This document shows, piece by piece, positions 8,249 through 57,177 of a stretch of 64,000 bases of DNA; the first letter of the stretch is position 1; each line of letters starts with the position of its first letter. The position numbers were made by a program, and so were the translations under genes. The DNA is from Arcobacter cloacae (GTDB taxonomy: Bacteria; Campylobacterota; Campylobacteria; Campylobacterales; Arcobacteraceae). The DNA lies in contig NZ_CP053833.1 in assembly GCF_013201935.1 (NCBI RefSeq), positions 1,922,001 through 1,986,000 on the forward strand, in the 5' to 3' direction. The notes beneath the pieces are model-generated. The model saw nothing but the letters and a program-made list of their open reading frames with translations. It did not search any database and was not told where the DNA came from.

Positions 8249-9091
8249 TTATACCTCTTTAATATAGTAAATAGCATGTTTAAGGCTTAAACTAGAGTAT
8301 TTATCATGAGAGTAGTCTCTTAGAAAATTTAAAAATTCTGTTTCTTCTGGAGTTGCAATTTGAAAAAGTTGTGAAATACTTGGAAAGTATTGATTCTCTT
8401 TGAAGATTTCAAATTTTGAAAGGATTAAAAACTTTAGAGTTTTTACTGTTTTTATTTGTTGTAAATCTTCATTTGAAATTTTTTGATATTCAAAAATTTC
8501 AGATTTTTTGTTGATATACTCTATTAATTTTGAGTAAAATTGAGTTATTTGAACTGGTTTATCTTGTAACTCTTTGAACTCTTTCATATCAGCTTTTGAA
8601 ATGTTGATTGTTACATTTTGGATAGTAAAATCTTTTGGGCTATAATCATAACTTATACCACTGTAGAAATGGGCATAGTCTCTTATTTTTTTAACAGTTC
8701 TTTGAACTGGAGTCAAATCAAAAGGTGTATCTTGATTAAGCTTTACCACTCTTTCATCTATTAACTCTAATTTTCTATTATAAAAATAGTTAACAACTAA
8801 AAAAAATAAAGCTAACAAACCGAAAACTTGGAATTTAAAAACACTCTCTGCTTTATTAATACTATTTTGAAATTGCTCAAAAACAAGTGTCAAGATGTTA
8901 TTTAAGCCCATAGATAAACCAATTAATGATATTAGTATAACTGCTTGTTTTATAACTAAGTTTGTGCGATTAGAACGCTGATAGCCTGTTAATTTTTTGT
9001 CTTTTGTCAAACCCCAGAGGATTGACAATAGGATAAAAAAAGTAATGAAAAAAATGTAGTAAAATACTACTCTGTCACTTAGTGGTTGCAT
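8249..9091 (-). CDS. Membrane protein with a cytoplasmic C-terminal domain
   Basis: The 280-residue product has three N-terminal membrane helices (YYIFFITFFILLSILWGL, AVILISLIGLSMGLNNIL, VFGLLALFFLVVNYFY). The remaining 165 residues are soluble and form a mixed alpha/beta domain (SPKDFTIQNVTINISKADMK, then helical segments to the C-terminus). It ends 3 bp before the coupling ATPase and overlaps the upstream gene by 1 bp, so the three genes are one transcriptional unit. It may belong to the inner-membrane part of the same transfer machine. I do not recognise the family. Confidence 0.6.
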   Translation of the reverse strand: MQPLSDRVVFYYIFFITFFILLSILWGLTKDKKLTGYQRSNRTNLVIKQAVILISLIGLSMGLNNILTLVFEQFQNSINKAESVFKFQVFGLLALFFLVVNYFYNRKLELIDERVVKLNQDTPFDLTPVQRTVKKIRDYAHFYSGISYDYSPKDFTIQNVTINISKADMKEFKELQDKPVQITQFYSKLIEYINKKSEIFEYQKISNEDLQQIKTVKTLKFLILSKFEIFKENQYFPSISQLFQIATPEETEFLNFLRDYSHDKYSSLSLKHAIYYIKEV

Positions 9092-10203
9092 TATCTCTCC
9101 TTTTGGTTATCATTTAGATTTTCATAATCTTTGATTAGTTGAGATTCAGGCTTATCTTTGTATGTTATCTTATTTTCAGTTGATGATTGAAACTCATTTT
9201 TTGAGGTTTGAGTCTTGTTTTTTAGGGCTTCGATTTTATCTTTTAAAGTAGAATTATTTTTTTCTAAAATAAATTTATGAGACTCTATTTTATTTTTTTC
9301 AACTAAAAGTTCTAACTCTTTTTTTAGGTTTTGATTCTGTTCTTTAAGCTTATCAACTGCTGATTTAAGATTTAAAATATCTTTTTCAAGCTCCGCGAAC
9401 AATTTATTTTTTTCGCTTTGAGGTAAAGAACTGTTTGATAAATCATCGATTTTTTCATCAACTTTTTCGCTTTTATCCTTTACATCTTTTATATCTGTTT
9501 CGATTTTTTCAGCTTGTTTTATTTTTTCTAAAAAAGCATCATTAATAAGCCCAATATTTAGGCTTAAATCTGATTTGAATTTGTAAAATTGATTTAAAAA
9601 ACTTGAATCATCTTTTTCTAGTTCGATTTTTTTATCTTGATTTTTTACATTTTCAAAATAAAGTGGATTAAGTTTATCATTTATAATTATTTCTATTTTT
9701 TGCTCTTGCTCTTGGATTTTTTCTGATACTTTTTTTAATTCAGTTTCATTTTTTAATCCCCACTCTTTTATAAATTGTGGAAAAAAATGTTGCTCTAGCT
9801 CTTTTTTTGCCTGGTCTTGATTTATGTTATGACTTGCATATTCGCCATTGTTTCTTACGGTTAAAATTTTAATTTCAGTTAAATCTGAACTTGCAAATAA
9901 GTATCTATTTTCTAGTTTTTCATCAGATTTTATTTCTAGTTCTGGATTAAACTCGATATTTAATCCAATATTTTTAGGGTATTTCTTTTGAAAATCTTCT
10001 ATAGAAAAAGAGTTAAATTTTATAGGAGTAAGTTCAAAAATCTTTTTATTTTCAATTGATTCAAACTCTTCTTTTTGAAGTTGTTTTATATCTTGAATTT
10101 CTTCCTTAAAATAAGATTTTATTTCTTTCTCATCATTATTTGTAGCTTCTAATTCAACATATACCGTTCTTTCTTTCATATTTACTTTATAGAAATTTTT
10201 CAT
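9091..10203 (-). CDS. Long coiled-coil protein of the transfer block
   Basis: The product has 370 residues. The first 150 or so form a mixed domain (KVNMKERTVYVELEATNNDE), and from about residue 155 to 340 the chain is an almost uninterrupted coiled coil with repeated Glu/Lys/Leu heptads (LKSAVDKLKEQNQNLKKELE). There is no signal peptide or membrane span. The N-terminal segment of the next gene upstream (10207-10581) has a similar beta-rich flavour, so the two may be partners. It overlaps the downstream membrane-protein gene by 1 bp. A structural or DNA-organising role is possible; none is demonstrated. Confidence 0.6.
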   Translation of the reverse strand: MKNFYKVNMKERTVYVELEATNNDEKEIKSYFKEEIQDIKQLQKEEFESIENKKIFELTPIKFNSFSIEDFQKKYPKNIGLNIEFNPELEIKSDEKLENRYLFASSDLTEIKILTVRNNGEYASHNINQDQAKKELEQHFFPQFIKEWGLKNETELKKVSEKIQEQEQKIEIIINDKLNPLYFENVKNQDKKIELEKDDSSFLNQFYKFKSDLSLNIGLINDAFLEKIKQAEKIETDIKDVKDKSEKVDEKIDDLSNSSLPQSEKNKLFAELEKDILNLKSAVDKLKEQNQNLKKELELLVEKNKIESHKFILEKNNSTLKDKIEALKNKTQTSKNEFQSSTENKITYKDKPESQLIKDYENLNDNQKER

Positions 10204-10206
10204 TTT

Positions 10207-10581
10207 TTACTCCAAATCAAGTTTAAGTTTATATATAAAAATTTTTGTACTAGTACTATTTCTCTTTTCAACTTCCATTTCATTTCCATCTTTTTTACAA
10301 AAATAAAATTGATACTCATCAATATCTTCAATTTCAAATTCATTTTTGATTTTTTTTGCAAAAATCTCAACATTATTTGTGTCCCAAAATATTTTAAGAT
10401 TTTGAAAATATCCATCTATTACAACGATTTGATGGTAAGTGTCAATTAAAAAAGGGATTGACTCTATACCTGTTACTTTTACATTTATCTCAATATTTTG
10501 CTCTTTTAGTTGTAATTCTTTTTTCACTATTTTTTTAAGATTTTTCTCAAAAGAATCTATTTTATTTTTTATTTCTTCCAT
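10207..10581 (-). CDS. Small soluble hypothetical protein
   Basis: The 124-residue product begins with a charged helix (MEEIKNKIDSFEKNLKKIVK) and continues into an alternating, beta-rich domain (IEINVKVTGIESIPFLIDTY, HQIVVIDGYFQNLKIFWDT). It has one Cys and no obvious catalytic motif, signal peptide or membrane span. It lies 3 bp upstream of the long coiled-coil gene and 10 bp downstream of the tail-anchored coiled-coil gene, so operon membership is clear. A second frame across part of this gene (10200-10415) is a shadow. No family is recognised. Confidence 0.6.
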   Translation of the reverse strand: MEEIKNKIDSFEKNLKKIVKKELQLKEQNIEINVKVTGIESIPFLIDTYHQIVVIDGYFQNLKIFWDTNNVEIFAKKIKNEFEIEDIDEYQFYFCKKDGNEMEVEKRNSTSTKIFIYKLKLDLE

Positions 10582-10591
10582 TTTTTTACCT

Positions 10592-10993
10592 TTATTTTAA
10601 GATTATAAAATTTATGCCAGTTGTTATAACTGCAACTATAACTGCAACTTTAAAAACGGATAGATTAACTATGTAATCTGTTTTATCAAGTATCTTTTCC
10701 AATTTTTTTAAATTCTCATTTTTTAATAAATCATCAATTTTTTTCGATAAAAAAGCTAAATATGAAGAATAATTTGCTGTTAGTTCTTGTTCATTTTTGA
10801 AATTAAACTTATTCAAAATAGATGTATAACTTTCCAATTTATCTGTTATCTCTTTTTGAGTTTTTTGAATCTCATCAAGTTTATTTATCACGCCAGTTAT
10901 TTTTTGAAGCTCTTGAAGATATATTGATTTTTGAAAATCAAAAGTATCCATTAACTCATTTACTTCTTTCTCATCTAGTACTATTTTGCTCAT
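10592..10993 (-). CDS. Second tail-anchored coiled-coil protein
   Basis: The 133-residue product is helical and charged over most of its length (LQELQKITGVINKLDEIQKT in the middle) and ends in one hydrophobic segment, VFKVAVIVAVITTGINFIIL, typical of a C-terminal membrane anchor. The layout repeats that of the 117-residue protein at 4830-5183, although I see no convincing sequence similarity. It sits between the parA-like gene (10 bp upstream) and the rest of the transfer block. It could tether a soluble complex to the membrane. No family is recognised. Confidence 0.6.
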   Translation of the reverse strand: MSKIVLDEKEVNELMDTFDFQKSIYLQELQKITGVINKLDEIQKTQKEITDKLESYTSILNKFNFKNEQELTANYSSYLAFLSKKIDDLLKNENLKKLEKILDKTDYIVNLSVFKVAVIVAVITTGINFIILK

Positions 10994-48531: not shown

Positions 48532-49659
48532 TTATTTCTCCAACAAATGCTCATATTTTTTATCTGTTAAAAGTTTCATAAAAGCTACAAGTGCTTCAAC
48601 TTTTCTATCATTTAAAGCTTTTGTTTTTAACTCTTCAAGAGAAATATTCTCTTTTACCTCTGGCTCATCCCAAAGTTTTTTAGTCTCTGGATTTATAGTT
48701 CTTTCTTTATTACTATATTTGTCATAAAATTCAACCACTGTTTTTAAATCTGCAAATACACCATTGTGCATATATGGAGCTGTAACTGCCACATTTCTTA
48801 ATGTTGGAGTTTTATATTTTCCTTTTTGAGCTTCATCTGTCACATTTGGATTTGCTAAAAGCCCCTCATCAATTGTTTTAACTCCATTTTTTTCTCTTAA
48901 ACTATGATTTGCAGGAGTTCCAATATTATGATATTCGTAATTTGTAAAAGTTTCACCCTCTTTATCTTCACCTTTTAAAACATGACATTTTGCACAAGAG
49001 TTATTGTTATTTGAGAAAAATATTGATTTTCCCAAATCCTCAAGTGGAGTCAAATCATATTCACCCTTTAAATATCTATCATATTTTGAATCAAAAGGTG
49101 AAAATTCATCACTTCTTTCAAAAGATGCAATTGCTTTTGTCATAGATTCATAAGCTAGCTCTTCATCTTTAAAAACATCTTGTCCATAAATCTTTTGAAA
49201 ACTTTCAACATATAAACTATTCTCTTTTAATCTTTCTACAACCTCTTTTTTATCTTTCATTCCCATCTCTATTGGATTCAATGGTGGTCCACCAGCTTGT
49301 TCTTCCAGCGTTGCTGCTCTTCCATCCCAAAATTGTCCTCCTATATACTTTTGTTTCTTCTCATCAAAATGAAAAGGAGGAGAAAATTTTGCATAAGATG
49401 CAGTTGGAGCTTGTCTATCTCCCAATGATTTTTCATCATCTCCTAATGATGCCATTTTTGAAACACCATTTTCTCTATCATCTACAAATCCTGTGTTTGG
49501 ATTGTGACAAGTTGCACAACTTTGAGTTCTATTTTTAGATAAATTTTTATCAAAAAATAGAATCTGCCCTAACTCTTGCTCTTTTAAAATATCATTTGCA
49601 TTTAAACTACTACTTAAAAATGCCAATAATATTGGTGTTAAAAGTTTTAAATTTCTCAA
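48532..49659 (-). CDS. Periplasmic di-heme cytochrome c peroxidase (MauG/CcpA family)
   Basis: The 375-residue product has a signal peptide (MRNLKLLTPILLAFLSSSLN) and two c-type heme sites: RTQSCATCHNPNTGFVDD near the N-terminus and NNSCAKCHVLKGED at about residue 225. The order, spacing and AVTAPYMHNGVFADLKTVVE segment match bacterial di-heme peroxidases. They reduce H2O2 or, in the MauG branch, oxidise protein residues. It is last in a five-gene minus-strand operon begun by imelysin and overlaps the hydroxylase-like gene by 50 bp. The link with iron-regulated genes suggests a redox step on iron or on a partner protein rather than only detoxification. Confidence 0.9.
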   Translation of the reverse strand: MRNLKLLTPILLAFLSSSLNANDILKEQELGQILFFDKNLSKNRTQSCATCHNPNTGFVDDRENGVSKMASLGDDEKSLGDRQAPTASYAKFSPPFHFDEKKQKYIGGQFWDGRAATLEEQAGGPPLNPIEMGMKDKKEVVERLKENSLYVESFQKIYGQDVFKDEELAYESMTKAIASFERSDEFSPFDSKYDRYLKGEYDLTPLEDLGKSIFFSNNNNSCAKCHVLKGEDKEGETFTNYEYHNIGTPANHSLREKNGVKTIDEGLLANPNVTDEAQKGKYKTPTLRNVAVTAPYMHNGVFADLKTVVEFYDKYSNKERTINPETKKLWDEPEVKENISLEELKTKALNDRKVEALVAFMKLLTDKKYEHLLEK

Positions 49660-50566
49660 AATAATTTCTCCCTTTTTTTGCTAAATTAATAAATGGTCTT
49701 AATATCAAATCTTTTAATGAAACATAATCACTCATTTGCTCTTTTCTTAATCCAAATTTCAAAATCTTCACATCTTTTGATAAACAAAGTGTTCCAAATA
49801 ATCTATCCCAAATAGCAATATATCCTCCATAATTCCTATTGAAATGTTTTTTATCATGATGTATTTGGTGCTGTTTTGGAGACATTAACCATTTTTCAAT
49901 ATATCTTCCATATGAAAAAGGCACGTGAGAATGCCTAAGATTAGAACCAAACAATGAAAAAATAAATAAAAATATATTTACTCCTAAAACCATATAGATA
50001 TCTATTTTTGCACCAAAAAAATAGATAAAAACACCTGTTACAAAACCAATACTTAAAGAATATCTCAAACCGAATAAAAAATTTTCTACTGGATGAACTC
50101 TATAAAAAGTAATTGGTGTTAAAACTTTTGCACTGTGATGAACCTTATGAAACTCCCATAAAATTGGAATAGTATGTAAAAATCTATGAAGCCAATATCT
50201 TGTAAAATCGCTTACTACAAAGATTGATATTGTATAAAGTAAAATAATTGTTCCATATGAAAAAAAACTATTTTCATAATAATCAAACTGTGCATATAAA
50301 AATTTATTTACATATAAAGCTATGGTTTTTGCACCAATAATATAAGGAATTAATAAAAATATATTTATGAAATATGATAAAAAAAAGTAGTAATAATCCA
50401 ATTTTGCACTTGGATGTAACCATAATTTTGATGATGTAATTACTCTACTATTTTTTTTACTTACATAAAAATATATAAATGCTAAAACTATTGAGCTAAG
50501 TATATAAACCCAAAATAATCTTTTATTTGGGTTTATTAAATACTCAAATGCAAACAACTCATTCAA
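49610..50566 (-). CDS. Fatty acid hydroxylase/sterol desaturase family membrane protein
   Basis: The 318-residue product has four or five spans and the di-iron histidine clusters of the family: YWLHRFLHTIPILWEFHKVH (HRFLH and HKVHHS) and KQHQIHHDKKHFNRNYGGYI (HQIHHDKKH). Family members hydroxylate or desaturate lipids. It is embedded in the imelysin/di-heme operon, 3 bp after the second imelysin gene and overlapping the peroxidase gene by 50 bp. A sterol substrate is unlikely in this organism; a membrane fatty acid or ornithine lipid is possible. Its placement in an iron operon is unusual. Confidence 0.88.
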   Translation of the reverse strand: MNELFAFEYLINPNKRLFWVYILSSIVLAFIYFYVSKKNSRVITSSKLWLHPSAKLDYYYFFLSYFINIFLLIPYIIGAKTIALYVNKFLYAQFDYYENSFFSYGTIILLYTISIFVVSDFTRYWLHRFLHTIPILWEFHKVHHSAKVLTPITFYRVHPVENFLFGLRYSLSIGFVTGVFIYFFGAKIDIYMVLGVNIFLFIFSLFGSNLRHSHVPFSYGRYIEKWLMSPKQHQIHHDKKHFNRNYGGYIAIWDRLFGTLCLSKDVKILKFGLRKEQMSDYVSLKDLILRPFINLAKKGRNYFEKFKTFNTNIIGIFK

Positions 50567-50569
50567 TTA

Positions 50570-51517
50570 TTAATCTCCATCCGCATCAAGGATTTTTCCT
50601 GTTATACTTAACTGTTGTATCAAAGAAACATAATAAGCATTATGCAATTCACTTGCTAAAGTAAATAATTTATTTGCCTTTGTAAAATCATCTTTAGGAA
50701 GTGTTTTTAACTCATTTTGCATTTCATTTATCTTATCAATTACCACTAAAAGCTCAATAGCAGCCCCTTTATCTAAAGCATAAGAAGCAAAATCATAATA
50801 TTTATGTTTTTTAACTATCTCATTATGTGCTTCTAAAATAGCCTCAATTGCAGCAAAAGAGTTTTGACTCAAAAAATACTCTGCTCTTTCATTTTTTGCA
50901 TCATTTTTAAATTTTGCAGAATTTCCACTTGCATTTCCAATTCTCCACTCTTTTAACCTATAAGAACTAGCAATCAAACCATTTATAACTAAAGCTGTTT
51001 CAAATTTTTCATCTTTATTTGGTTTTTCTAAATAAGCTTTGTAAACACTATTAATATCTTCTAAGTGTGAAATAATAGAATCCAAAATAGCTATACTTAA
51101 CTCTTTTTCTCTATTTGAAATTTCTTTATCATTAAATAAAACATACTCTAAAGCATTTATAGTTTTATAAGAATTCTTAAAAAGTGCTTTTTTAACCTCA
51201 TCATTTGATTCAATTACTCTTTTCATTTGAGAACTTAAGTCCTCTTTTAAATTATTAAAAACATCTATATATCTTGGTGTATCTAAAAAATCTTCATCTA
51301 AATCACCAGCAAAATATAAAGCTTCTACTTTTTTCCACGATTTCAAAAAATTTGTAAAATTCTCTTCATTTAAATCTTTTTGCAAAATTTTTGCATTATC
51401 TATACTATTTTGAACATTGATAATAGATACATTTTTCAAAATATTTAAAAATAATCTATCTTCTGCAAACAAAAATGTCGCACAAAATAGAACTAAAAAC
51501 AGAATCTTTTTCATCAT
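50570..51517 (-). CDS. Second imelysin-like periplasmic protein
   Basis: The 315-residue product has a signal peptide (MMKKILFLVLFCATFLFAED) and an all-helical imelysin-type domain (FTNFLKSWKKVEALYFAGDL, INALEYVLFNDKEISNREKE). The GxHxxE metal site of classical imelysins is not seen; the equivalent is INALEYVLF, so the His is lost. Second imelysins of this kind accompany IrpA and a DUF1111 di-heme protein in many bacteria. Start and upstream stop overlap by 1 bp (TAATG). It may be an assembly partner rather than the iron-binding member. Confidence 0.85.
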   Translation of the reverse strand: MMKKILFLVLFCATFLFAEDRLFLNILKNVSIINVQNSIDNAKILQKDLNEENFTNFLKSWKKVEALYFAGDLDEDFLDTPRYIDVFNNLKEDLSSQMKRVIESNDEVKKALFKNSYKTINALEYVLFNDKEISNREKELSIAILDSIISHLEDINSVYKAYLEKPNKDEKFETALVINGLIASSYRLKEWRIGNASGNSAKFKNDAKNERAEYFLSQNSFAAIEAILEAHNEIVKKHKYYDFASYALDKGAAIELLVVIDKINEMQNELKTLPKDDFTKANKLFTLASELHNAYYVSLIQQLSITGKILDADGD

Positions 51518-52920
51518 TATAATTCCTCTAAAAATTTAATTAATTTTTCTCTTTTCTCTTTTGGTAAGTTCATATAGTTTTCTTTACTACTTTTTGCTTC
51601 ACCACCATGCCATAAAATAGCCTCTTGAAAACTTCTAGCTCTTCCATCATGTAAAAGTCTAGGTTTCTCTTTGTTTATTTTCTCATGAAGTGCCAATCCC
51701 CATAAAGGTGCTGTTCTAAACTCACTTTGAGATGCCATAAATTCAACTCTTCCATCTGCTAAATCTTCTCCCATATCATGTAATAAAAAGTCAGAAAAAG
51801 GTGCTATTTTAAAACCTTTTTTTGTATCAAAACTTGGAATATGACATTTTGAACATGAGATTGCTTCAAATAAAGCTAAACCTTCATTATACTCTTTTGT
51901 ATCTTTTGGAATATAAGCTTTTATATTTTTTAAATAATATGTAATTGCTTCAAGTCTTTCATCGGGTAAATCTATAGCTTCTCTTGGTTTTATAGCTTCA
52001 TTACACTCTTTTTGAGCTTGGGTACAGTTTTCATTTGGGAAAAGTGAAGTTGTTAATCCCATATCATTTGATGCAGCACTTGCTACTTGTTCTTTTAAAA
52101 ATGCAACACTGGCTTTCCAAGTATATTTACCTAATTCTATCTGTTTAGTCAAAGCTGAATATACAAAATTTGCTCTTCCTGAAATTCCATCATTATTTGA
52201 ATCATATTCATCTACATTTGCTAAAATATCTTCATTTGATATTAAATCAATTAATCCCATACCATTTAATGTTGGTGCAATTCTATAAGAGATATTTACA
52301 TCTTTATGCATAGTTCCATAATTTAAATTTGTTAGTTGATATTTTGGTTTTAATAGTATTTGTTTTTCACCATCAGGGAAAATTATCTCTTTTTCTTCAA
52401 AATCAATTTTTATATTTCCCTCAAAATCAACATTCAAAGTACCGTTTATTGCCAATTGATTTCCATAAACAGGTTCTGGTACAAAACCTTGATATTTAAG
52501 TAATTCTTGATGTTCTAAACTATCATTTGCTTTGATTGATAATCTGGCAACTAATGCTCTTGAAGTTATATTATCTTTTGAGATTAAAGTACCTCTTCCA
52601 TTTTTTGGATGACATGAAACACAACTATTTGCATTAAAAAGTGGTCCTAGTCCATCCCTTGCTGTTGTTGCACTTGGAGCTTCAACCCAAGGAATTGTAA
52701 AAAAACTTCTTCCTAAAATAAACTTATCATACTCTTCATCATTTAAATTTGAAACAGGAGTTAAAAGTAATGAACTATTTTTATTTGTTGATAAAATTTC
52801 ATCACTATTACTAAAGGCAAAAAGCCCTGTAGTAAAAATTACTACAAGGCTTTTTATAAGAATAACTCTGCTTAAAAAAGAGTTATTAAATTTTTGTTTC
52901 TTCAGGGTCTGTAACATCAT
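51517..52920 (-). CDS. DUF1111 di-heme thiol oxidoreductase-like cytochrome
   Basis: The 467-residue product has an N-terminal signal/anchor (FLSRVILIKSLVVIFTTGLF) and two c-type heme motifs, NANSCVSCHPKNGRGT and EAISCSKCHIPSFDT. The segments LLHDMGEDLADGRVEF and EFRTAPLWGLALHEKI are diagnostic for the DUF1111/DHOR family. Such proteins are regularly encoded between two imelysin genes and are thought to do redox chemistry in periplasmic iron acquisition. The start codon lies 35 bp inside the preceding imelysin gene, so translation is coupled. Confidence 0.9.
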   Translation of the reverse strand: MMLQTLKKQKFNNSFLSRVILIKSLVVIFTTGLFAFSNSDEILSTNKNSSLLLTPVSNLNDEEYDKFILGRSFFTIPWVEAPSATTARDGLGPLFNANSCVSCHPKNGRGTLISKDNITSRALVARLSIKANDSLEHQELLKYQGFVPEPVYGNQLAINGTLNVDFEGNIKIDFEEKEIIFPDGEKQILLKPKYQLTNLNYGTMHKDVNISYRIAPTLNGMGLIDLISNEDILANVDEYDSNNDGISGRANFVYSALTKQIELGKYTWKASVAFLKEQVASAASNDMGLTTSLFPNENCTQAQKECNEAIKPREAIDLPDERLEAITYYLKNIKAYIPKDTKEYNEGLALFEAISCSKCHIPSFDTKKGFKIAPFSDFLLHDMGEDLADGRVEFMASQSEFRTAPLWGLALHEKINKEKPRLLHDGRARSFQEAILWHGGEAKSSKENYMNLPKEKREKLIKFLEEL

Positions 52921-54238
52921 CTGTACTTAAATTAATTCCATTAGCAGCTGCAACGTTAACCATCTCATCACCTAATTTTCTCATTTCATTTTTAAGTTTT
53001 ACGATAACTTTTGATTGTTCACTCTCAGGTCTAATTTGATAATCAAAATGAGCTTTTGTTCTTGCAACTTCATCAATATTTTTAATTTTTTCTTCAATTG
53101 AAGCCATTAATTTTTCAATTCTTTCTTTTGATTCTTTATCAACAGCATCAAATAAAGATTTACCATATTTTTTACCATTATAAGTAGCTGTTAAAATATT
53201 TTTGAAACCTAAATAGTTAGCTTCTATATCTCTGTGTGTATTATCAGAAAAACAAGAGTGTTCATCTTCTTCACTTGGAGTTAAAACAGCAACTGCAATT
53301 CTTTCATTTGCTAATTCTGATTTAATAAATACACCCATTCCCGCAATAATTTGTTTCAAAGCTTCTGTTGTTTCAATATTTTTTGAAGCATTATCACCTT
53401 TTAAAGTTCCGTTTAAAGCAGCTTGATATAAACCTTTTTCTCCATCAACTTTTTTCTCCCAAGCAGACGTTACTAAAGCTAAATCATCAACTAATTTATC
53501 AGTTGCAGCTTGTAAATAAGCTAATCTTCTTTTTGAATTTTTATCTGTAGTAAAATCAGAAAGTGGTCTTTGACCTGCTGTCATTGCACCATTTGTTACA
53601 GCATCTGTCATAAAGTTTGAATAATCTTGGTCTTGCCCCCATAATAAAAACTCAATTGCATGGTAACCTGTAGATACATTTGCTTCTCCACCATTTTCAT
53701 TTAAATCAGTAAGAGCTTCAACTGTTATTTTTGTTACATCAACTTCTTTTGATTCTTCTCCACCTGGATTAAAAACTCCAACTGTATCAATAATATTTCC
53801 AGAAGTAAGTTTACCTTCTGCATCAATTGTATAATCTATCATATTCTCATCAAGTGGCCAAGCATTAATCTGCCCTTCTAAAGCACCATAAGCTTCAGCT
53901 ATCCATCCCTCTTCAGCATCAATTGGTCCATTTGATAATCTAAAAATTTCAGTTTGACCATAAGATTCTCTTGATTGCAACCAAGCTTTTTTTGAAGCAT
54001 CAAAATTAGCTTGTGTAGGATTTTTTACAAAATTATCTATTGCTTTTTTCAAATTTTTTGCATCTTTTAATGCATCACTATAATTTGCTAATGCAATATC
54101 ACTATAAGCTTGCAAAATCGATTTTGCTTGAGAAACTTCCATTTTTTTTACTTCATTATTATTTGTAGTAGCATTTGAACTTAATGCAACAGCTGCTACC
54201 AAAGATAGAGAAATCAGCACTTTTTTTGTTAAATTCAT
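52886..54238 (-). CDS. Imelysin-family iron-regulated protein (IrpA-like)
   Basis: The 450-residue product has a signal peptide (MNLTKKVLISLSLVAAVALS, cut before TNNNEV). Imelysin motifs are SRESYGQTEIFRLSNGPIDA, GALEGQINAWPLDENMIDYT and STGYHAIEFLLWGQDQDYSN with the GxHxxE metal site. The C-terminal ETEALKQIIAGMGVFIKSEL and EDEHSCFSDNTHRDIEANYL segments also match IrpA. It acts in the periplasm in iron acquisition. It is first in the operon, with a Fur-box-like palindrome 82 bp upstream, in line with iron repression. Confidence 0.92.
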   Translation of the reverse strand: MNLTKKVLISLSLVAAVALSSNATTNNNEVKKMEVSQAKSILQAYSDIALANYSDALKDAKNLKKAIDNFVKNPTQANFDASKKAWLQSRESYGQTEIFRLSNGPIDAEEGWIAEAYGALEGQINAWPLDENMIDYTIDAEGKLTSGNIIDTVGVFNPGGEESKEVDVTKITVEALTDLNENGGEANVSTGYHAIEFLLWGQDQDYSNFMTDAVTNGAMTAGQRPLSDFTTDKNSKRRLAYLQAATDKLVDDLALVTSAWEKKVDGEKGLYQAALNGTLKGDNASKNIETTEALKQIIAGMGVFIKSELANERIAVAVLTPSEEDEHSCFSDNTHRDIEANYLGFKNILTATYNGKKYGKSLFDAVDKESKERIEKLMASIEEKIKNIDEVARTKAHFDYQIRPESEQSKVIVKLKNEMRKLGDEMVNVAAANGINLSTDDVTDPEETKI

Positions 54239-54319
54239 AATTTTCCTTTAATTTATAATTTTAATATTAATTATCATTTATGAATTAAATCAAATTTTTA
54301 CTTGATTTTCTCTTAAATT

Positions 54320-54332
54320 GATAATTATTATC
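54320..54332. promoter_or_regulatory. Fur-box-like palindrome upstream of the imelysin operon
   Basis: GATAATTATTATC lies in the 170-bp divergent region, 82 bp before the imelysin start and 77 bp before the rhodanese gene. A second related string, TTAATTATCATTTAT, is at about 54269-54283. They match the GATAAT inverted-repeat style of Fur sites; iron control of the imelysin operon is the likely consequence. Confidence 0.6.
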
Positions 54333-54408
54333 ATAAATTATATTTTATTAAGTATTTTTTCAAGTTATAAAATCTATACTGTCTCACTAAAAATAAAAAG
54401 GAAATTTT

Positions 54409-55107
54409 ATGAAATACTTCTTATTACCATTTTTAACAAGTTCTTTTCTTTTTTCTTCAAATATTTCTTTACAATATAAAGGAATAGAAGTTACTCATAC
54501 TTATTTAAATAACGAAAAAGAAAAATTTATAATAGAACGAGAAATTGCAAAAGATTGCATTAATATTGGAATAAGTCCTGAATATTTCACTGAACAAAAT
54601 ATTAGAAATAATACTTCAAATAAATGTAAAAAAACTATTATTACAAGTACGGGTATTATTCAACCCTTATACATTAATGACAAAATAAAAACTGTTGCTG
54701 AACTTGAAGTATTAGATTTTATTTTAAACAAATCATCAAAAGAACCTCAAAGTTACGCTTTAGTTGATTCAAGAAAATCTTCATGGTTTAATCAAGCAAC
54801 AATTCCAAGTGCTATAAATATTCCTTTTGAAGATTTAAAATTTGATGAAGATTTCAAAGAAGAGTTCCTAGAAGCTTATGAAAATTTGAATGTAAAAATT
54901 ATAGATTTAGAAAAAAATATTTATGATTTTACAAATGCAAAAACTATAATCTCTTTTTGCAATGGTTCATGGTGCCCTATTTCAACAAAAGCTATTGAAT
55001 ATTTATTAAGTATTGGTTATCCAGCTGAAAAAATTATGTGGTACAGAGGTGGAATGGCTGAATGGAATGCCTTATCAATGACTGTTACTAAAGAGCTAAA
55101 AAATTGA
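54409..55107 (+). CDS. Periplasmic rhodanese-domain protein
   Basis: The 232-residue product has a signal peptide (MKYFLLPFLTSSFLFSSNIS), a roughly 80-residue N-terminal region with a CxnC pair, and a C-terminal rhodanese domain: YALVDSRKSSWFNQATIPSA, NIPFEDL, the catalytic loop SFCNGSWCPISTKA with the active-site cysteine, and MWYRGGMAEWNALSM. The C-x3-W-C loop is a known variant. Sulfur transfer or cyanide detoxification in the periplasm are possible; the substrate is unknown. It is divergent from the iron-linked imelysin operon and might share its Fur-like site. Confidence 0.85.
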   Translation: MKYFLLPFLTSSFLFSSNISLQYKGIEVTHTYLNNEKEKFIIEREIAKDCINIGISPEYFTEQNIRNNTSNKCKKTIITSTGIIQPLYINDKIKTVAELEVLDFILNKSSKEPQSYALVDSRKSSWFNQATIPSAINIPFEDLKFDEDFKEEFLEAYENLNVKIIDLEKNIYDFTNAKTIISFCNGSWCPISTKAIEYLLSIGYPAEKIMWYRGGMAEWNALSMTVTKELKN

Positions 55108-57177
55108 TTTAAAATTTTTTATAAGCTCTTTAGCTTTTTCTTGTTCAATTTTATCACCTAAAACTTTATCTATCTTGTCGTTTATTTTATCTTTATTTTT
55201 TTCCAATTTTTTATCAATCTCTTGTTTTAATAAATCTTTAATATCTAAAGATATTTTTGGCTTATTCATTTCTCCTTGTAATTTAATAGAAAAATTACTA
55301 CTTTTTATTTGAGTGTCAAGTTTTGCATCAATTGTATTTTTTTCAAAATCTAAAAAAGAGTCTTTTATATCAATTTGAGTATTCTTACTCTTCATAATTA
55401 AATTTGAAATCAATTGCTTATCCTCAATATTACTATTTATTTGTACGCTTTCATAAATCTCTTTTGTTAAATCAAATTTTGCTAATTGATTGATTATTTT
55501 TGAAAATTCATTTGGTAAAAAATGCCCATTTAAAAGAGAGCCTGTTAAATTTCCTTTTTTTGATAACAAATCATAATCTAAAGTAAAATCAGCTTTAGAA
55601 TTAAAAAACTCTGGTTGTATCAACATATAAGATAACTCTTTGATACTAGCATTAATTAATTTTGCTTTTAATTCACTATTTTGTAGATTAAAATTAAAAT
55701 CTCCTCCTAAAATATTTGATTTTCCATCCACGAAAAGATCACTTTCACTTTTATAAATTTTTCCTAGAATTTTTGCTTCACCTCTTAACTTTACCTTTGT
55801 TAAATCTTTTATTTTTTCTAAAGATGCTATATCTATTAAATAATCACTATTAAAAGTGCTATCACTTAAACTATAAATAGCATTTTGTATTTTCATTTTT
55901 GCAATATTAGTATCAAAATCTATTTGCGATAAGATTTGATTAGGAACTAAAGAACTATTTGATTCTAAATTAAATGTAATTACATCTTTTAAGTCTTGAT
56001 TAAAAACTGCATTCACAACTTCATTTATTATTTTTCCATTATTAATTTTTGATTCAATATTTCCATCTAATTTAGCTATCTCACTATTTTTTATATCACC
56101 TCTTATACTTAAATCACCAGTTGCATGAATTGGTTCATTTAACATATTTAAAAGTTTTTCAACTTTTGTGTTTTCTACTTTAAAACTGATATTTTGTGCT
56201 ATGTTATTATTTATTTCAAATTTATAAAATGTATCACTATCTATAATATTTGATTTACCATCAACAAAAACAACAGAATCTTGGAACTTAATTCTACCAT
56301 TAGTAGAAAACTCTCCATTTAGTTTTTTCCCGATAATTCCCTCTAGTCTATTTAAATTCTTAACATCAATTTTATAATCTGAATCCACACCTTTATTCTT
56401 TAAATCTATTGAAGTTTTTTCAATGAATAAGTCAAACAATGAACTAACAAGTTCTGATTTAATATCTACTTTATCACCTAATAAAGAAGCATTAATATCT
56501 GCTTTAAAATTAACTGAAGAACTAATTTTTTGTTCAAATTCTTTATTTATAACTTCATTATCTAATAAACCTTTTGTAATACTTGCAGTTAATAAACCAT
56601 CTAAGTTATGCACATCAATATTTCTTACATTTGCATTTATTGTTAAAAGACCCTTTGTATAAATAGGTTTATTTAATAAATTTAATAACTCTTCTATTTT
56701 CGCATTTTTTAAATCCAATTGAATACTATTTGCTTTAAAATCTATCAAATTTATGTAGTACTTAGTTTCACTACTAGCAATATTTGAAAAACCATGAACT
56801 ATTGCTTCTTTAGAATCACCTTTTAAAATACCATTTGTAAAAAAACTTCCTTTAAACTCTTGATTAGTCAAATTTTTTAAAGTTGATAAATCATTTATTT
56901 TAATATCATAAACTAAATCAACGCTTTTTTTAAAAAGCGCTAAATCACCTGTTATATTCATATAAGAATCATCATTTATTACTGCATTAAAATCTAATTT
57001 ACTAAAAGTCAATCTAAAATTATTTATTTTTAATTTTACTTTCTCTTGACCTGCATTTACTCTATTTTCCAAATAAGATGAGATAATTCCATTACCATAT
57101 TTTGTAAATGCCAAAACATAAATAATAGATAAAATAAATATAATTAATATAATAAGAGATACAAATATTTTTTTCAT
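55096..57177 (-). CDS. AsmA-like protein with an internal repeat structure
   Basis: The 693-residue product has an N-terminal membrane anchor (IFVSLIILIIFILSIIYVLA) and a large beta-rich periplasmic part. Three similar units of about 180 residues are visible by recurring motifs: G-K-S-N-I-(L/I)-(D/G) (VDGKSNIIDSDTFYKFEINN, VDGKSNILGGDFNFNLQNSE, and a diverged HGFSNIASSETKYYINLIDF), then a helix before LLNLLNKPIYTKG or LLNMLNEPIHATG, then NLDGLLTASITKGLLDNEVI-like strands. The repeat suggests a long beta-groove as in AsmA/TamB/YhdP lipid-transfer proteins. The C-terminus is a charged coiled coil (about 650-690). The name is from fold analogy. Confidence 0.7.
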   Translation of the reverse strand: MKKIFVSLIILIIFILSIIYVLAFTKYGNGIISSYLENRVNAGQEKVKLKINNFRLTFSKLDFNAVINDDSYMNITGDLALFKKSVDLVYDIKINDLSTLKNLTNQEFKGSFFTNGILKGDSKEAIVHGFSNIASSETKYYINLIDFKANSIQLDLKNAKIEELLNLLNKPIYTKGLLTINANVRNIDVHNLDGLLTASITKGLLDNEVINKEFEQKISSSVNFKADINASLLGDKVDIKSELVSSLFDLFIEKTSIDLKNKGVDSDYKIDVKNLNRLEGIIGKKLNGEFSTNGRIKFQDSVVFVDGKSNIIDSDTFYKFEINNNIAQNISFKVENTKVEKLLNMLNEPIHATGDLSIRGDIKNSEIAKLDGNIESKINNGKIINEVVNAVFNQDLKDVITFNLESNSSLVPNQILSQIDFDTNIAKMKIQNAIYSLSDSTFNSDYLIDIASLEKIKDLTKVKLRGEAKILGKIYKSESDLFVDGKSNILGGDFNFNLQNSELKAKLINASIKELSYMLIQPEFFNSKADFTLDYDLLSKKGNLTGSLLNGHFLPNEFSKIINQLAKFDLTKEIYESVQINSNIEDKQLISNLIMKSKNTQIDIKDSFLDFEKNTIDAKLDTQIKSSNFSIKLQGEMNKPKISLDIKDLLKQEIDKKLEKNKDKINDKIDKVLGDKIEQEKAKELIKNFKSIF

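Follow-up and report, generated by a model that had tools for sequence, protein, structure and literature searches.

A fatty acid hydroxylase-family protein and a MauG-related di-heme enzyme in an extended imelysin operon of Arcobacter cloacae

What do a membrane hydroxylase and a relative of MauG do in an operon of imelysins? The question is raised by a 64,000-nucleotide stretch of the Arcobacter cloacae genome (contig NZ_CP053833.1, positions 1,922,001 to 1,986,000; hereafter the window), where five minus-strand genes follow one another almost without gaps from position 54238 down to 48532. They are designated here IME1, DHOR, IME2, FAH and PRX: an imelysin, a di-heme oxidoreductase, a second imelysin, a fatty acid hydroxylase-family enzyme and a relative of MauG. 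We propose, with modest confidence, that the five genes form one Fur-controlled iron-acquisition module, which would include redox chemistry and the hand-over of iron to an importer.

The five genes and their conservation

IME1 (52886..54238) encodes an ICMP-family imelysin with the motif GYHAIE and a signal-like N-terminus, and DHOR (51517..52920), a DUF1111 protein, a di-heme oxidoreductase with two CxxCH motifs. They are followed by IME2 (50570..51517), an IPPA-family imelysin that has TINALE in place of GxHxxE and ends in ADGD; by FAH (49610..50566), a membrane enzyme of the FA_hydroxylase family with a TTG start and complete His motifs; and by PRX (48532..49659), a MauG-related di-heme enzyme that also has a TTG start and has a signal-like N-terminus. 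The Pfam scores of the five products, 227.5 and 78.4 bits for the M75 domains of IME1 and IME2, 251.2 bits for DHOR, 91.9 bits for FA_hydroxylase (cut-off 31) and 175.2 bits for the CCP_MauG domain of PRX, all exceed the curated cut-off of the respective family. By coordinates, IME1 and DHOR overlap by 35 bases, DHOR and IME2 by 1 and FAH and PRX by 50, and a 3-base gap separates IME2 from FAH. The five genes, their order and their coordinates, claimed in an initial annotation of this DNA, are thus confirmed by the open reading frames and the Pfam matches. A whole-genome search of the 2.81 Mb genome returned IME1 and IME2 as its only imelysins, and the nearest named relatives in the PRX and FAH trees belong to Aliarcobacter.

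Within the genus, FAH is present in 27 of 31 genomes, in one of them (G016) only as a fragment at a contig edge, and DHOR is likewise present in 27. The two sets of genomes differ by one each way: G001 lacks FAH and has IME1 with a truncated DHOR, and G016 has the FAH fragment and no DHOR match. Beside the window, 25 of the other 26 FAH loci were fetched, 24 of them complete and one at a contig edge, with PRX. The order IME1-DHOR-IME2-FAH-PRX is exact in all 24 complete loci. A draw of 298 genomes from the phylum contains FAH in 20 and DHOR in 21, all 20 FAH genomes being among the 21, and the same gene order was found in the 11 FAH loci of this draw that lie outside the genus (11 of 11). The conservation of the order across genus and phylum shows that the operon is not an artefact of one genome, and the idea of a local curiosity was rejected on this ground. 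In three loci (L075-L077) an extra gene is inserted between FAH and PRX, which in L075 encodes an outer-membrane-barrel-like protein, its Pfam match being below the cut-off. One same-genus locus (L078 6884-8846) is a decayed operon, with IME1, a truncated DHOR and no match to IME2, FAH or PRX in the fetched stretch.

Both imelysins belong to described families. With its M75 domain and GxHxxE motif IME1 is an ICMP-family protein; its best solved relative is the insulin-cleaving ICMP 7xrx (E=4e-55), and GxHxxExL is kept in 55 of 58 distinct IME1 rows, the other three deviating. IME2 has the traits of the IPPA family, namely an M75 domain, loss of the GxHxxE histidine and the position of second imelysin in the operon. 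A profile of IME2 matches IPPA 3pf0 at 1.7e-9, and a single-sequence search gave no convincing relative. In TINALE the Gly is changed as well as the His; the latter is absent from all 35 IME2 rows of alignment A4, and a GxHxxE string occurs somewhere in one of 59 distinct rows. The loss of this histidine, already pointed out in the initial annotation, is therefore real; it is not new, because it is a published trait of the IPPA family (PMC3143127). The acidic tail ADGD, coded at 50573-50584 of the window, is almost invariant (35 of the 35 rows of A4; among the 59 distinct rows 57 ADGD and 2 SDGD), IPPA also ends in DGD, and the tail is a possible metal ligand.

FAH and the genes that accompany it

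FAH of the window carries the motifs HRFLH, HKVHH and HQIHH in addition to its domain match, as members of the FA_hydroxylase superfamily do, and nine histidines (H127, H131, H140, H143, H144, H212, H233, H236 and H237) are invariant in 61 of 61 rows taken from all gene contexts. No sequence match to FAH was found among solved structures and its model (pLDDT, the predicted local distance difference test, 88.7) had no significant Foldseek match; in a second look with VIA-align at 30 chains, the hydroxylase domain of Scs7p came first with a Z of just 4.6. The score of FAH with the ornithine lipid hydroxylase model of NCBIfam (NF052566, OlsE) was 57.3 bits, far below the cut-off of 475. FAH thus shares the superfamily and the His motifs with Scs7p and OlsE, and differs from both by these low scores. 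In the FAH model, loop 36-51 contains four basic and no acidic residues and loop 95-103 no basic and two acidic ones. Applying the positive-inside rule to these charges, the His cluster is predicted to lie on the cytoplasmic side of the membrane, which makes FAH unlikely as a direct link of a periplasmic redox chain.

The contexts of FAH were surveyed in one genome per species with the FAH alignment as query, and the top 80 among at least 579 relatives were retained. Their neighbours were identified by profiles and example proteins were verified with Pfam; the flanks are of unequal length and some neighbour names (FbpC, FbpB in L155 and L158) were assigned by eye. All five genes lie within 7 kb in 47 of the 80 loci, among them loci of Campylobacterota, SUP05 symbionts, Pasteurellaceae, Alcaligenaceae and Moraxella. 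Four loci are partial: L101 lacks PRX, L109 lacks IME1 and DHOR, and L098 and L099 have a multicopper oxidase gene (8967-10658, by Pfam, and 8933-10654, by similarity only) at the place of PRX, followed by FbpA- and FbpB-like genes. A different arrangement, consisting of FAH, DUF4856, another imelysin and a TonB-dependent receptor, was found in 21 loci. FAH is accompanied by Fbp-type ferric-transport genes in four more, two of them with DUF4856 and FbpA/FbpB, and two (L155 5879-7939 and L158 7881-10004) in which a single uninterrupted frame with an internal signal-like stretch encodes both FAH and an FbpA-like protein. This frame, which may be a fusion or adjacent genes in frame, is followed by open reading frames resembling FbpB and FbpC (read by eye; the profile script gave no FAH label there). 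DUF4856 is the sole labelled neighbour of FAH in L157, where a contig end is near. The openly licensed literature searched for this work contained no paper on DUF4856. According to the profiles, the fetched stretches of the 80 loci contain FbpA or FbpB in 16 cases, FTR1 in 5 and FeoB in 2, to which the two FAH-FbpA frames are to be added. A branch of the FAH tree (95/98) has the 38 rows from five-gene or partial loci all on one side, although their sources include Campylobacterota, SUP05 relatives, Pasteurellaceae, Alcaligenaceae and Moraxella; the module appears to have been transferred between lineages. A SUP05 relative (L104 5571-6020) has a ferritin-like gene (PF00210) between IME1 and DHOR.

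Its recurrence beside iron genes identifies FAH as a companion of iron uptake, and the frame shared with FbpA together with the three arrangements indicates that it is no passenger. It could nevertheless be argued that FAH serves to produce or alter a lipid when iron is short, and shares the regulation of the operon without any role in iron transfer. The complete His motifs, the OlsE match, although below cut-off, and the predicted cytoplasmic position of the His cluster would all suit such a lipid enzyme. We consider this rather doubtful, as it accounts poorly for three different iron-gene arrangements and for the single frame with FbpA in two genomes, and neighbours of the imelysin, Fbp, TonB-receptor or DUF4856 kind are seen in all but 3 of the 80 loci (L106, which is cut downstream, L140 and L156).

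PRX, DHOR and the possible chemistry of two di-heme enzymes

The closest solved structures to PRX are MauG chains, with E-values of about 1e-110 and up to 376 bits, and PRX is 49% identical to Paracoccus MauG over the alignment. BthA reaches at most 143 bits, the 6e1c protein 105 and the cytochrome c peroxidases up to 110 (1e-30 to 1e-19). Residues were counted over 60 operon rows; the window is among them, and three genomes are represented twice. Rows below 400 bits (one in L134, and in L102 a second one) and the loci L030-L054 of the same genus are outside this count. His35, Gln103, Pro107, Glu113, His205 and Tyr294 (MauG numbering) are kept in 60 of 60 rows, and each of these rows has the two CxxCH motifs and the Tyr294 heme ligand expected of a MauG. 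Trp93 is kept in 34 of the 60, and Trp199, the relay from MauG to its protein substrate, in none. The P. denitrificans enzyme and PRX are therefore alike in the two CxxCH motifs, Tyr294 and Gln103/Pro107/Glu113, and differ in Trp199 and in their surroundings, the neighbours of PRX being imelysin-operon genes and not mau genes. MauGs keep Tyr294, in the place of which peroxidases have another residue, the classical ones Met or His (PMC7567364), and a Tyr-His heme has been linked to the formation of bis-Fe(IV) (PMC6405878). Tyr294, the similarity scores and the tree described below led us to reject PRX as a classical cytochrome c peroxidase. The name di-heme peroxidase that it had received says too little, the nearest solved relative being MauG, with a Tyr heme ligand.

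The MauG model of NCBIfam (TIGR03791, cut-off 443.85 bits) gave PRX 112.5 bits and P. denitrificans MauG itself (L183 6893-8056) just 96.8, and PRX scored 168.5 bits with the MbnH model TIGR04039, below its cut-off of 362.85. For methylamine dehydrogenase (PF06433) no match was found in the genome of the window, and the control genomes likewise gave none. BthA and MbnH are, like PRX, MauG-like di-heme enzymes encoded outside mau clusters; they are more distant, with scores of no more than 143 bits where MauG gives about 375, and BthA, which has a Tyr-His heme, is encoded near a phosphatase gene (PMC6405878). In the similarity network of the same paper, the MauG cluster consists "largely" of mau-operon enzymes with Burkholderia enzymes as next neighbours, and the excerpt does not mention imelysin (PMC6405878).

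In the PRX tree, the two Paracoccus MauGs, Azospirillum and the operon enzymes form a 42-row group; its support of 85/89 is too low for a firm branch, and the tree has long outgroups. The MauG of Methylobacterium falls outside this group and is about 33% identical to that of P. denitrificans. In the mau clusters of Methylobacterium (L186 11343-12401) and Paracoccus (L183 6893-8056), the MauB proteins share 71% identity over 84% of the query, and yet the MauGs are on different branches; one of these clusters may have exchanged its MauG for another. Two of the four Azospirillum regions that were read have a MauG-like gene directly before imelysin, DHOR, imelysin and DUF1513, and the other two do not; this arrangement is a second context, without FAH, that ties a MauG-like enzyme to imelysins.

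DHOR resembles PRX in its modelled fold. A single-sequence search against solved structures gave no convincing relative; the model (pLDDT 86) shows the MauG/peroxidase fold, with MauG 4l1q (Z 14.8 over 247 residues) tied with hydrazine synthase gamma 5c2v. H104, H360, H381, H424 and H438 are present in 38 of 38 rows. H438 occupies the motif position of MauG Tyr294 and, because of this position, would be a heme ligand and give a bis-His heme.

MauG acts on methylamine dehydrogenase and MbnH on MbnP, and by analogy PRX could modify a protein, oxidizing residues of an imelysin or of DHOR and thereby building a metal site. The identity of about 50% to Paracoccus MauG, the invariant Tyr294, Gln103, Pro107 and Glu113, two conserved Trp residues of IME2 (W61 and W191, kept in 90% or more of 35 rows) and the MauG-like gene that heads the imelysin operon in two Azospirillum regions are consistent with such a role. 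The lack of Trp199 in 60 of 60 rows counts against the same route and not against the idea itself; Trp93 is kept in only 34. Core imelysin operons lacking such a gene have been published, a multicopper oxidase can take the place of PRX at the locus, and we regard protein modification as unlikely.

Similarly low is the probability that PRX and DHOR serve to remove peroxide, shielding the periplasm from Fenton chemistry during iron import. Membership in the CCP/MauG superfamily, seen in the sequence of PRX and in the modelled fold of DHOR, would agree with this; the Leptospira imelysin operon is also upregulated under lethal peroxide (PMC7567364), and BthA is an active peroxidase despite its Tyr ligand (PMC6405878). 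Nevertheless, PRX has the Tyr ligand of MauG and not the Met or His that the rule given in PMC7567364 assigns to classical peroxidases, and the exchange of a peroxidase for a multicopper oxidase would not be expected. That exchange fits an oxidase role of PRX. With a ferric ABC importer adjoining, it points to an oxidation of Fe(II), the iron then being passed on as Fe(III).

Probable iron control and the proposed module

A perfect 7-1-7 palindrome, TGATAATTATTATCA, can be read at 54319..54333, about 80 bases upstream of the IME1 start and between IME1 and a rhodanese-domain gene. Upstream regions were scored by how well they match, at their best position, a 19-mer Fur consensus of the E. coli type, and compared with shuffled sequence. 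The region of the window reaches 15/19, against a mean of 12.2 in shuffles and with 0 of 60 shuffles reaching 15. For 85 IME1 upstream regions, in which ten genomes are counted twice, a mean best match of 14.47 compares with 11.92 after shuffling, and a score of at least 15/19 occurs in 61 of the 85. The Fur-like site thus exceeds chance expectation, and the palindrome reported in the initial annotation is borne out. A scan for promoters and terminators in this A+T-rich stretch found 49 promoter-like sites, 40.9 being expected, and 2 terminator-like sites, 1.2 being expected. The divergent rhodanese-domain gene (54409-55107), whose product begins with a signal-like sequence, borders the intergenic region that contains the Fur-like site; of the 24 complete same-genus loci only 2 include a relative of it, as does the decayed L078. 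As 19 of the 22 loci with no rhodanese match keep a Fur match of at least 15, the site belongs with the operon. Further upstream, a 693-amino acid open reading frame (55096-57177) has no Pfam match, and overlapping partial alignments suggest internal repeats; a relative of it adjoins the operon in many Arcobacteraceae.

In Leptospira, the core operon of imelysin, DHOR and imelysin is induced by dipyridyl (PMC13066512) and responds to iron limitation (PMC7567364). The conserved site and, for the core operon, this induction support a putative control of the five genes by iron. Iron-gene neighbours and the Fur-like site together point to iron import. That the module handles copper or another metal instead is very improbable: in vitro the M75 protein EfeM binds copper and zinc as well as iron (PMC9174327) and the PDB title of 6e1c links a MauG-like protein to copper homeostasis, but the Fur-like site and the repeated iron-transporter neighbours, the latter from a scan made without a search for copper transporters, speak for iron.

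In the proposed module, IME1 and IME2 would bind iron in the periplasm and the two di-heme enzymes would set its redox state. PRX would most likely oxidize Fe(II) through its paired hemes, using peroxide or oxygen as oxidant, and DHOR would transfer electrons or perform a related step. The resulting Fe(III) would be handed to a separate ferric ABC importer of the FbpABC type. In some relatives such an importer is encoded next to the module; in the genome of the window an FbpA homologue, 57% identical to the FbpA of L090, is encoded elsewhere. FAH would be a di-iron hydroxylase of the membrane whose active site faces the cytoplasm; its most likely substrate would be a membrane lipid or a lipid-like iron ligand, which it would hydroxylate in support of this uptake. 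We infer these chemical steps, the electron acceptor, the FAH substrate and the delivery to FbpA; the gene order, the families, the conserved catalytic residues, the recurrence beside iron transporters and the conserved Fur-like site are direct observations. The suggestion of a periplasmic iron redox pathway more elaborate than described stands in so far as the operon is longer than the published ones and recurrently includes a hydroxylase and a second di-heme enzyme; the part that gave FAH a direct place in the redox chain does not, in view of its predicted cytoplasmic His cluster.

Several points weigh against this module. We know of no MauG-type enzyme that has Fe(II) oxidation as its task. 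In 24 of the 85 upstream regions the Fur match is below 15/19; among these are the six SUP05-like loci without exception (L097-L100, L103 and L104), three of the four Pasteurellaceae (L116, L121 and L127; L114 reaches 16) and several Arcobacteraceae, e.g., L041, L049 and L087. An Actinobacillus pleuropneumoniae gene called mauG, perhaps related to PRX, is downregulated under iron restriction (PMC3091793). No Fbp gene is present in the fetched stretch, with flanks of differing length, of 62 of the 80 loci, and the multicopper oxidase in L098 and L099 perhaps represents one event, because the loci come from sister symbiont lineages in the FAH tree. Finally, as the survey was seeded with FAH, the frequency of imelysin operons without it cannot be read from the survey; two Azospirillum imelysin operons and the published P. 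aeruginosa operon (PMC3143127) show none.

The relation to known systems is closest for the operons PA4370-PA4373 of P. aeruginosa and VC1264-VC1266 of V. cholerae, which share the imelysin, the DUF1111 protein, the imelysin with GxxxxE and the control by Fur (PMC3143127). In the operon described here, unlike those, FAH and PRX follow, and DUF1513 is not among the five genes. A DUF1513 gene is part of the P. aeruginosa and Vibrio imelysin operons, as it is in Azospirillum. The EfeUOB/M transporter also combines an M75 imelysin domain with a heme peroxidase partner; the five genes include neither an FTR1 permease nor a DyP peroxidase and have di-heme enzymes of the CCP/MauG type instead, which separates them from EfeUOB, and an FTR1 gene is nearby in 5 of 80 relatives. 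In the openly licensed literature searched, nothing was found on imelysin with a fatty acid hydroxylase or sterol desaturase, and imelysin together with MauG led only to the Leptospira work. Among the matches listed for MauG and iron uptake none was, by title, a paper about MauG, and those for sterol desaturase, iron limitation and Fur were unrelated by title. The core of the imelysin operon and the His loss of IME2 are hence already known, and the extension by FAH and PRX was not found in that literature.

A wider view is put forward tentatively. FAH and the MauG-related enzyme could be overlooked general parts of iron acquisition, with the high-valent heme chemistry of the MauG type serving uptake, either by Fe(II) oxidation or by maturation of imelysins; the Paracoccus MauG that makes tryptophan tryptophylquinone might then have been recruited from the iron-operon lineage, and that of Methylobacterium from another branch. 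The operon thereby offers a possible origin of MauG. It also suggests that genes annotated as cytochrome c peroxidase or sterol desaturase and adjoining imelysins are iron-uptake genes. Imelysin systems have been tied to iron uptake without an agreed mechanism, and the fixed presence of a hydroxylase and a MauG relative offers two chemical steps that can be tested.

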